NCBI GenBank assembly: GCA_020052375.1
Contig: JAGVPG010000030.1
Coordinates: forward strand, 1-64,000
Length of the DNA stretch: 64,000 bases
Direction of reading: 5' to 3'
Source of the DNA: Actinomycetota bacterium
Lineage (GTDB): Bacteria; Actinomycetota; JAHEXW01; JAGVPG01
The notes below the pieces were generated by a model, which was given only the letters and a program-made list of their open reading frames with translations, was not told the origin of the DNA and ran no database searches. The first letter of the stretch is position 1, and every line of letters begins with the position of its first letter. The position numbers and the translations under genes are program-made. This document shows, piece after piece, positions 34,249 to 37,655 of the stretch.

Positions 34249-34260
34249 CACCTCCTACGT

Positions 34261-34295
34261 GTCGTTGCGAGGGAGCGAAGCGACCGAAGCAATCT
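34261..34295. repeat. Dispersed palindromic repeat, copy 1
   Basis: GTCGTTGCGAGGGAGCGAAGCGACCGAAGCAATCT; related to 52395-52437. Confidence 0.6.
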
Positions 34296-34340
34296 ACGCA
34301 AACGGTTAAAAGTGAGTGCTCGCTCGCCTTCAAACTAGAA

Positions 34341-34512
34341 AAAGCCCGCAGGTTATATCTACTCGAAAAGACGCGTCAAATTCCCAGCGAGAATTTGACG
34401 CTCGGGACTCAGGCCTCGCTCGTCGCTAGCTCGGTGTTAGACACACCTCGCAAGCGACACCATGCCCGCTCGGCCTTCGACGCTTTTCTAGTAGATATAA
34501 CCTGCGGGCTTT
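34341..34512. repeat. 172-bp palindromic/multi-hairpin element
   Basis: Perfect 23-bp arms AAAGCCCGCAGGTTATATCTACT (34341-34363) / AGTAGATATAACCTGCGGGCTTT (34490-34512); internal perfect 11-bp hairpin 34373-34383/34391-34401. Confidence 0.8.
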
Positions 34513-34772
34513 ATAATATTTATACCCACACACTCGCACGGAATATTAATATAGAGGCCACCCTTCAAGTCGGTTCCCAATGAAGTCTGACGTTAACAAA
34601 TATACTCCCGCTGACACAATTATGTCATTCCGAGCGAAGCGAGGAATCCAGCAAACACGCAGCAAAAAGTAGATTCAACAGCCTATGCTCCATCGTTTAA
34701 AAACATGGCAACATAGCTCAGTTCATGTTAATTTCACTATAAGGGTTACGGCTGCTAAAGGAGTATTAGTCG

Positions 34773-35516
34773 ATGAATCAAGATCCTAACATACTTGTAA
34801 GCAACAAGAAGGCATTCCATAAGAATCCTTTAGTCGTAGTAATCAGCTGCTTATTCATAATAATGTTTTGTACCATTACTTTAGTCTGCAGCTGTAGCGA
34901 GAAGCCTCGAAGAAAATCGGACATCACCCATCCCTTCGGCATGTATTATTCGATCAGTTATCTAGTCTGGGTAGAGCCGGATTCAAATGACGATCTCAAA
35001 GATTTCACGATATACACACCTTTTCCAGCTGCTAACGGTGGTGCTAGAAAGCGTCTATTAACAACTGTGCTGAACCCAGATCCTCTCAAGAAGTACCGTG
35101 TTGAAATGCATGGATATGCTAGTCGTAGGATTGTTGCAACAACACGAGGAGACATGCTTCAGCTAAAAGCGCCATCTTTTAAAGGAGTCATGATCGAATC
35201 GGTGTCTGAGTTTTATACACTATTACCCATTAATTGTGTATCCAAATACCCACTAATTCCGTCAGAAGAAGATGCGACATGGATATACTTGAACTACGAA
35301 GGAGAAGGGCCAGTACGAATATATCTACAGTATAGTTTAGGTTGGATTCTAAATTATACGACTTGGATACCCACCCACCAACCGACAACAGGCTATGTCA
35401 CTACCTATATTGTAGGAACCGCTCCTGCTGAAGTTCCAGTTGATGTACACATGATAGTTGTCCGAAAAAAAGGATGGGTCAAGCTACCATTACAGAAGTC
35501 TACAGTGCGTTACTAA
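34773..35516 (+). CDS. Hypothetical lipoprotein
   Basis: N-terminal TM and cysteine (VCSCSEK); sequence visibly more AT-rich than neighbouring genes. Confidence 0.65.
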   Translation: MNQDPNILVSNKKAFHKNPLVVVISCLFIIMFCTITLVCSCSEKPRRKSDITHPFGMYYSISYLVWVEPDSNDDLKDFTIYTPFPAANGGARKRLLTTVLNPDPLKKYRVEMHGYASRRIVATTRGDMLQLKAPSFKGVMIESVSEFYTLLPINCVSKYPLIPSEEDATWIYLNYEGEGPVRIYLQYSLGWILNYTTWIPTHQPTTGYVTTYIVGTAPAEVPVDVHMIVVRKKGWVKLPLQKSTVRY

Positions 35517-35604
35517 TGCATTAAGGGTGGCAGTTAGAACTACCTTTTTACTAACTTGATAATAATGCTTGATCCGCAACCCCTCTCTCGTTTTGAGCTT
35601 AATT

Positions 35605-35787
35605 AGGGTGGAGTTGTCCGGATCAGACTCCATCGGGAGCTGACCTTTGAGTTGTGCGAGCATTTACCAGTTCTGTGAGGAAGACCTGCTGGTAAAGCGA
35701 CGAACAGAGTCTTCCGAACGACCTGAGGAAATGTGAGTACAAATCAAGGACAGTTTCCAAGGAAGATGATCCGGACAACTCCATCCT
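35605..35787. ncRNA. Candidate structured non-coding RNA (or RNA-encoding mobile unit), family unknown; strand not certain
   Basis: 21-bp closing stem (35605-35625/35767-35787, 20 WC plus 1 G-U) enclosing several nested helices and a 7-bp pseudoknot-type pairing; no ORF. Confidence 0.55.
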
Positions 35788-35890
35788 ATCTGTTAAGCGA
35801 AAAACTCCTGCTAAACCCCTTCACACACTAAATTACTTATTATAGAATATATATCTACTATTCAGCTGGTTTACAGACAAGACCCAAAAA

Positions 35891-35966
35891 GGGGTCAGGT
35901 CTTGAATTATGGCATTTTATTAAGTTTTGACGTTTTAAAAATGCAATAATTCACAGACCTGACCCC
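35891..35966. repeat. REP/MITE-like palindrome
   Basis: GGGGTCAGGTCTTGAATTATGGCATTTTA ... TAAAAATGCAATAATTCACAGACCTGACCCC, imperfect inverted repeat. Confidence 0.75.
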
Positions 35967-35993
35967 AGGTCTTAACGAAAATAAGGAGTAGTC

Positions 35994-37655
35994 ATGGCAT
36001 TAAAAAGCGACTCGATGAAGAAAGGGATCTCCAAAGCTCCGCAAAGGGCACTGCTAAAAGCACTCGGACTCATGGATTATGAGATCGATAAACCCCTGGT
36101 CGGCATCGTAAACTCGTTCAACGAGGTCATACCGGGACATATTCATCTGGACAAACTGTCGCAGGCGGTCAAGACGGGTGTGAAGATAGCGGGCGGGACG
36201 CCGCTGGAATTCCCGACGATCGGCGTCTGCGATGGGATCGCCATGAATCACCCGGGCATGAGATATTCTCTGCCCAGCCGTGAGGTCATCGCTGATTCGA
36301 TCGAGATCATGGCTGAAGCTCACGCTTTTGATGCCTTGGTCATGGTGACGAACTGCGACAAGATCGTTCCGGGGATGCTGATGGCGGCGGTCAGGATAAA
36401 CATACCGACTGTGATCGTAGGTGGGGGACCGATGCTTGCAGGCCGTCTTAAAGGTGAAGACATCGATTTGATCACGGTGTTCGAGGCAGTCGGAAAAGTG
36501 CAGACCGGAGGTATGAGCGAATCAGAGGTCCAAGAGGTGATCCGGAGGGCGTGTCCGGGTTGCGGCTCTTGCGCCGGACTGTTCACGGCAAACAGCATGA
36601 ACTGTCTATGCGAGGCTTTGGGCATATCGTTGCCGGGCAATGGGACGATACCGGCGGTCTACGCTGACCGGACTCTGCTTGCAAAGAAAGCGGGCGTCGC
36701 CGTGATGGAGCTTCTTAAAAAAGATGTCAGGCCGAAGGGTATCATCACCAAAGAAGCGCTTGAAAATGCGTTCACAGTGGATATGGCGATCGGGGGATCC
36801 TCGAACACGGTCCTTCATCTATCGGCGGTCGCATATGAAGCGGATATAGACTTCGATCTAAATAAGATAAACGAGATTAGCAGACGGACGCCGAACCTAT
36901 GTCACATCAGTCCTTCAGGCCCGGCTCATATGCAAGACCTTCATGAAGCGGGCGGCATCCCGGCTGTTATTAACGAGCTGATGAAGAAGGACCTTATCAA
37001 CAAAAACGCCGTGACGGTAAGAGGACGCACGATCGGGGAGATCGCAAAGGATACACCGGTGATCAACAACGAAGTCATCCGTCCGGTCGACGATCCATAT
37101 TCCGAGACAGGCGGACTGACGATCCTCTGGGGCAATCTGGCTCCGGAAGGAGCTATCGTCAAACAGGCCGGAGTCAGCGAGGAAACGTTACACTACAAAG
37201 GCAAAGCCCGTGTTTTCGATTCGGAAGAAGCGGCAACGGACGCTATTCTGGGGAAGAAGATCGTCCCCGGTGATGTCGTTATTGTACGCTACGAAGGACC
37301 TAAAGGAGGCCCGGGGATGCGCGAGATGCTTACTCTGACAAGCGCGCTTGCCGGATTGGGGCTTGTAACGCAGGTCGCCTTGATAACCGACGGCCGTTTC
37401 TCCGGGGGCACTCGCGGTTGCGCCATCGGGCATGTATCGCCCGAGGCTGCGGAAGGCGGACCGCTCGCTTTCGTCAAAGAAGGTGACGAGATCGAGATCG
37501 ATATACCGGCGCAAAAACTCGTACTTAACGTCGACGACGCGGAGATGGAAACACGTAGACAGGGATGGACGCCGCCGGAACCGAAGATAAAGCACGGTTA
37601 CCTTGCCAGGTATGCCAGGGACGTCTCAAGCGCCAGCAAGGGTGCCGTCATCTAA
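35994..37655 (+). CDS. ilvD: Dihydroxy-acid dehydratase
   Basis: [43 protein letters not shown]. Confidence 0.97.

Follow-up and report, generated by a model that had tools for sequence, protein, structure and literature searches.

Between a 247-aa ORF (34773-35516), for which no Pfam match was obtained, and ilvD (35994-37655), the window (the stretch of 64,000 nucleotides of an Actinomycetota contig analysed here) carries a series of complementary segments. They had been read in an earlier note as an undescribed structured RNA with a pseudoknot, and the question raised by the locus is what kind of element they form and what maintains it. The segments listed in that note are all present in the sequence and, consistent with it, no substantial ORF occurs within the element. 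In the minimum-energy and consensus folds alike, positions 35590-35805 form a single long imperfect hairpin (a rod), with the following parts:

35590-35805, + strand: whole hairpin element, referred to as copy W; minimum-energy fold z -11.0, close copies in the genome, match of 159.5 bits to covariance model R1 (see below)
35590-35602, + strand: outermost stem, 5′ arm; 85% complementary to 35793-35805
35604-35625, + strand: closing stem (P1 of the earlier note), 5′ arm, 22 nt; 95% complementary to 35767-35788
35622-35770, + strand: sequence-conserved core among copies; BLAST extents, mean identity about 79% over the aligned region
35654-35665, + strand: tandem G-A helix, 5′ side, GTGC-GA-GCATTT; sequence and consensus fold, pairs with 35729-35740
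35669-35725, + strand: subfamily 1 apical region, GTTCTGTGAGGAAGACC...GAGTCTTCCGAACGACCTG; alignment of copies, compared with subfamily 2
35682-35688, + strand: apical helix 5, 5′ side; consensus fold, contains most of the segment previously assigned to the pseudoknot
35705-35712, + strand: apical helix 5, 3′ side; consensus fold
35729-35740, + strand: tandem G-A helix, 3′ side, AAATGT-GA-GTAC; sequence and consensus fold
35767-35788, + strand: closing stem, 3′ arm; pairs with 35604-35625
35793-35805, + strand: outermost stem, 3′ arm; pairs with 35590-35602

That the pieces fit one coherent fold holds far beyond chance: the + strand folded as RNA reaches -108 kcal/mol (z -11.0), and z is -8.2 for the - strand as RNA and -8.5 for the hairpin folded as DNA. 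The architecture is nevertheless that of one rod and differs from the one proposed. The 21-bp closing stem is retained (as a 21/22-bp arm pair), as are P3 and the P4 helix with its tandem G-A loop, and the outer stem 35590-35602/35793-35805 had been overlooked. The putative P2 and P7 are not helices in either fold. P5 (ACCAG/CTGGT) is also absent from both: across copies its ACCAG side is nearly invariant, the CTGGT partner changes without compensation and up to 7 of 15 copies are unpaired at a given position. Once P5 is dropped, the 7-bp contact GGAAGAC/GTCTTCC is no longer a pseudoknot and mostly becomes the nested apical helix 35682-35688/35705-35712.

The element is multicopy and intergenic. 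A BLAST search of its own 1.64-Mb genome with the element identified 14 further close copies and one truncated copy, located between larger ORFs and pointing either way. A search with covariance model R1, which was constructed from copy W and the 14 other close copies, added five members of a second subfamily whose tip is different, giving a total of about 20. Mean identity of the close copies is 79% over the aligned core. Their interior is common to all while flanks and outer stem differ, and the closing-stem arms vary with compensation: 17 of the 52 consensus pairs changed on both sides, a level reached in none of 500 shuffles and abolished by shifting the pairing partner. Most of these changes fall in the outermost helix (10 of the 13 pairs of consensus helix 1). 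Both checks suggested previously, for homologues and for covariation, thus gave a clear positive answer, and the fold is under structural constraint or correction. Conserved interiors with compensated outer arms are the reverse of the pattern named as counter-evidence in the earlier note, simple terminal-repeat elements with degenerate interiors; the MITE alternative raised there comes close, with the opposite distribution of conservation.

Assignment of the second subfamily requires some care. On the reverse strands of the copies it was built from, themselves palindromic, R1 still scores 31-55 bits, and the matches to subfamily 2 (46-61 bits) were therefore accepted only because of shared sequences: both subfamilies carry GACCTTAG, TTTGC, AGCA and AAGGACAG, and two copies (L064 and L068) also carry CCAGGTCG(C/T)GAGGAC. 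The link between the subfamilies rests on these R1 matches and this shared sequence, an apical model of the second subfamily (R2) failing to detect subfamily 1.

Neither the window nor 14 loci bearing the element gave an Rfam match at gathering score, the models scanned including those for group II introns, HEARO/omega RNAs and retron msr. The suggested group II intron and omega/HEARO origins consequently have no Rfam support, nor has a retron-like ncRNA, for which no recurring partner gene was found either among the neighbours of elements in other genomes. A permissive scan of the window returned sub-threshold matches only; those to miRNA models fall mainly on a second, unrelated hairpin beside the element (35880-35973; AAGACC...GGGGTCAGGTCTTG...CAGACCTGACCCC), which looks REP-type.

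The apex provided the connection to other phyla. Subfamily 2 carries the apical motif GAGGACTGTNTGAG-N-GCGAGTTCCG, also present in G385, another genome of the same phylum. An exact motif scan of genome contigs recovered at least 118 stretches from at least eight phyla; among the matches listed, going by record titles, are Pseudomonadota, Nitrospirota, Patescibacteria, Bacillota, Actinomycetota (Coriobacteriia), Bacteroidota, Cyanobacteriota (Gastranaerophilales) and Desulfobacterota, and a variant form occurs in Fusobacteriota. Several sources are metagenome bins; isolates include Litorivivens lipolytica and Sulfuricella sp. T08. In twenty genomes the number of exact copies ranges from 1 to 22 (usually several), against none for the reversed pattern used as control. 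The distribution is patchy: the exact pattern was found in only 2 of 398 sampled genomes of the window's phylum, and the own genome scores 0 because the inner segment of subfamily 2 exceeds the allowed gap. No motif was found in phage and E. coli collections, and it is nearly absent from plasmids, where the clearest matches are on chromosome-sized replicons. BLAST with copy W against phage and plasmid sequences likewise gave no match, and exact scanning of the contig collection with the subfamily 1 apex string gave none beyond the own genome. Copy W lacks the exact motif and, judged from sequence, the subfamily 1 apex is best described as a derived counterpart of the cross-phylum module.

In nearly all loci the motif caps a long hairpin (median of 41 enclosing pairs within 100 bases on each side, maximum 89), only 3 of 117 motif windows having no enclosing pairs in the minimum-energy fold. 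The apex is a near-invariant two-strand internal-loop module across phyla; the stems are lineage-specific and unrelated between lineages. Genomes G413 and G414 (L312-L320) illustrate this in the extreme: copies within each share the tip and the adjacent 10-20 bp only, and their outer arms are unrelated yet almost perfectly complementary, implying either full turnover of the arms under selection or correction, or entry of the tip into existing palindromes.

A number of other repeats were noticed. Two short palindromic repeats of the window, at 34255-34304 and about 34624-34650 (GTTGCGAGGGAGCGAAGCGACCGAAGCAA and CATTCCGAGCGAAGCGAGGAATCC), both contain GAGCGAAGCGA; that at 34255-34304 scores 17 bits with R2 (E 0.001), and the pair could be distantly related to the apical module or have no more than its loop in common with it. 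Another long inverted repeat (AAAGCCCGCAGGTTATATCTACT ... AGTAGATATAACCTGCGGGCTTT) lies at about 34343-34512, downstream of a gene which we take to be rnc. Elsewhere, at five loci (L300, L301, L302, L157 and L141), the element occurs in inverted pairs reminiscent of REP doublets, at a spacing of about 215-320 bp. Several phyla (L103, L200, L199, L275-L286, L303) show a small additional hairpin after the rod, its 5′ arm rich in T (CTTTTCTTTGGTTACTTTTCTTT-loop-AAAGAAAAGTAAC is one example); this could be another conserved component of the element. The gammaproteobacterial L116 and L157 have in common a second internal-loop module (approximately AGTCA-helix-GTTT on the 5′ side) with different intervening helices.

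Signs of mobility come from two other lineages. The Patescibacteria genome G398 contains six complete copies, each 148 bp long and bounded by repeats of the GAACTCA/TGAGTTC type, with 94-97% identity among them. Every one of the six has an identical triplet on either side (ATT, AAT, TTA, GCT, AAT and TAA), a perfect 3-bp direct repeat as expected of transposition-like target duplications; the probability is about 7e-8 judged by base composition, and a permutation test gives p 0.003. The left end is degenerate in two more copies, and copies also occur in related genomes of the genus. In being short, non-coding and multicopy, with terminal inverted repeats, the element has the characteristics of MITEs. 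Since a search of G398 (an incomplete genome) revealed no autonomous or other element sharing these ends, we describe the element as MITE-like and do not assign it to a named MITE family. The second sign is presence/absence at one orthologous site in the Nitrospira-group genus of G401, downstream of a gene whose translation reads like that of a monothiol glutaredoxin, as we presume it to be: the element is present in G401 and G431, missing from G428 and G430, and reduced to fragments in G423 and G426. Several repeat kinds gather at this site, so that loss as well as gain is possible. No target duplications were found in the own genome or in G403, G405 and G416. With copies about 79% identical and no target duplications left, amplification in the own lineage is probably old.

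The search for an enzyme that might act on these copies gave no general candidate. No recurring neighbour gene family was found near elements in other genomes: ORF clusters considered as a shared neighbour or flanked cargo gene overlap the element or look unrelated, and the inverted pairs flank ordinary genes. Two Y1 (RAYT-family) genes are present in the own genome, but RAYT (PF01797) was undetected in 8 of the 22 element-bearing genomes, including the copy-rich G401, G403 and G416, although the assemblies may be incomplete. RAYTs are thus not the general answer, and were set aside as general mobiliser; we consider them unlikely as the trans-acting factor.

Whether selection acts on RNA or on single-stranded DNA was approached through strand asymmetry and loops, and these lines pull in different directions. 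Isolated mismatches in 87 nonredundant elements are rare (77 versus about 4000 pairs) and include 33 G-T versus 14 A-C (p 0.008); the Barnesiella genome G403 runs opposite, with 3 G-T versus 21 A-C in a redundant count. With RNA parameters, the strand bearing the motif folds more stably than the opposite strand for 75 of the 111 elements (p 0.0003); with DNA parameters the count is 61 to 48 in its favour, which is not significant. Among distinct inner segments, the innermost loop has the C-GNA-G form in 27 of 45 triloops, and there is one GNRA tetraloop; C-GNA-G triloops recall DNA mini-hairpins of extraordinary stability (PMC10527192). As to orientation with respect to the flanking genes, 27 elements are tandem antisense, 16 tandem sense, 23 convergent and 11 divergent (11 of 77, a degree of avoidance of divergent intergenic regions). 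This shows no sense preference, and a terminator or sense 3′-UTR reading was rejected. Replication-strand bias in G418 (10 of 14, assuming an origin at coordinate 0) is not significant.

How these observations are best brought together can now be considered. The reading we favour, at roughly even chances, is that of a non-autonomous, MITE- or REP-like mobile interspersed repeat forming a strand-specific rod, with a trans-acting factor at the apical module. Copies would be moved, now or formerly, by an enzyme supplied in trans. The apical module would be the candidate recognition site of the factor, most likely the enzyme that mobilises or processes the element, which would act on the motif-bearing strand once folded, whether RNA or single-stranded DNA, and the outer arms would be able to drift freely as long as complementarity is kept. 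Against this stand the lack of an enzyme among our findings, target duplications in only one of the lineages examined, the reversed G-T excess of G403 and the strand preference that loses significance with DNA parameters; moreover, a transposase reading double-stranded DNA ends would not alone conserve a central module. A more ambitious version, which we put forward tentatively, is a single ancient class of folded element with a fixed apical module and all else free, kept in many phyla by a widespread candidate protein that recognises the module and mobilises or processes it. A REP element of a RAYT (Y1 transposase) system would account for dispersed palindromes, for the inverted pairs of some genomes and for the RAYT-family genes of the own genome, and yet appears very improbable: besides the genomes in which PF01797 was undetected and the ordinary genes flanked by the inverted pairs, the element exceeds the REP length of 20-40 bp (PMC3733652) several-fold.

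The element might instead be a structured RNA with a cellular role, transcribed with neighbouring genes into a long dsRNA-like rod that would be processed (by RNase III, for example) or would stabilise or insulate mRNAs, its module binding a widely conserved protein and its dispersal being secondary. Covariation, the excess of G-T over A-C, a strand stability bias seen with RNA and not DNA parameters, and the combination of a tandem G-A internal loop with the two-strand module would all suit such an RNA; the orientation data, the patchy distribution within the phylum and innermost loops that are mostly C-GNA-G triloops rather than GNRA tetraloops do not, and we hold this reading to be possible but doubtful. 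Mutational symmetry would dispense with function in the fold altogether, replication template switching between the arms (quasipalindrome correction) keeping them alike, so that the covariation would be a mark of DNA repair. The unrelated yet almost perfectly complementary arms around a common apex in G413 and G414 and the rarity of isolated mismatches speak for it. However, it leaves the near-invariant cross-phylum module and the conserved internal loops unexplained and, correction being symmetric, does not predict more G-T than A-C; we judge it unlikely as the explanation. To return to the preferred reading of a mobile, trans-mobilised repeat: if it is true, a class of genome repeat lacking from Rfam and, within the reach of the present searches, from the open literature is marked in at least eight phyla by one structural module of about 24 nt; which factor recognises the module becomes a testable question. 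The family would also provide a clean system to separate RNA-level from DNA-level selection on hairpins, and would allow one to ask about the origin of long palindromes with arbitrary arms and about what maintains their symmetry.

The initial proposal is therefore upheld as to an undescribed structured element, with homologues, strong covariation and no Rfam match, and not as to a pseudoknot or a lone RNA. Among the results listed for the open-access literature, outside which most subscription papers fall, nothing relevant was found by sequence or by concept, and the family appears undescribed; specialists in repeats may know lineage-specific versions under local names, and for both reasons we group it with hairpin-forming interspersed repeats and not as categorically new. 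Several known systems offer instructive comparisons. Integron attC sites form long imperfect hairpins in which structure is conserved above sequence and one strand is active. In these features of architecture the element resembles them, but no integrase recurs among its neighbours. The DNA mini-hairpin d(GCGAAGC) (PMC10527192) has a counterpart in many copies, whose extreme tip is a triloop of the GCGNAGC type, but is a loop type only and not an element family. REP sequences are palindromes 20-40 bp long, tagged at the foot by GTAG or CGTC (PMC3733652). Like REP/BIME elements and their RAYTs (PMC2817692, PMC3733652, PMC8266576), the elements described here are dispersed intergenic palindromes in several phyla, often in inverted pairs, form lineage-specific families and avoid divergent intergenic regions; unlike them, they are rods of about 150-250 bp with the constant part at the tip, without the short tagged format, and part of their hosts have no detected RAYT. 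The NEMIS/Correia, ERIC and YPAL/RU repeats, hairpin-forming bacterial MITEs (PMC2649163, PMC2229807, PMC2759123), are similar in being about 100-200 bp long, non-coding and intergenic with end-to-end inverted repeats, and transcripts of NEMIS/Correia, which are repeats of Neisseria, can be RNase III substrates (PMC2649163). These repeats, however, are confined to few genera and have conserved ends, whereas in the present element it is the apex that stays constant across phyla, with variable ends.
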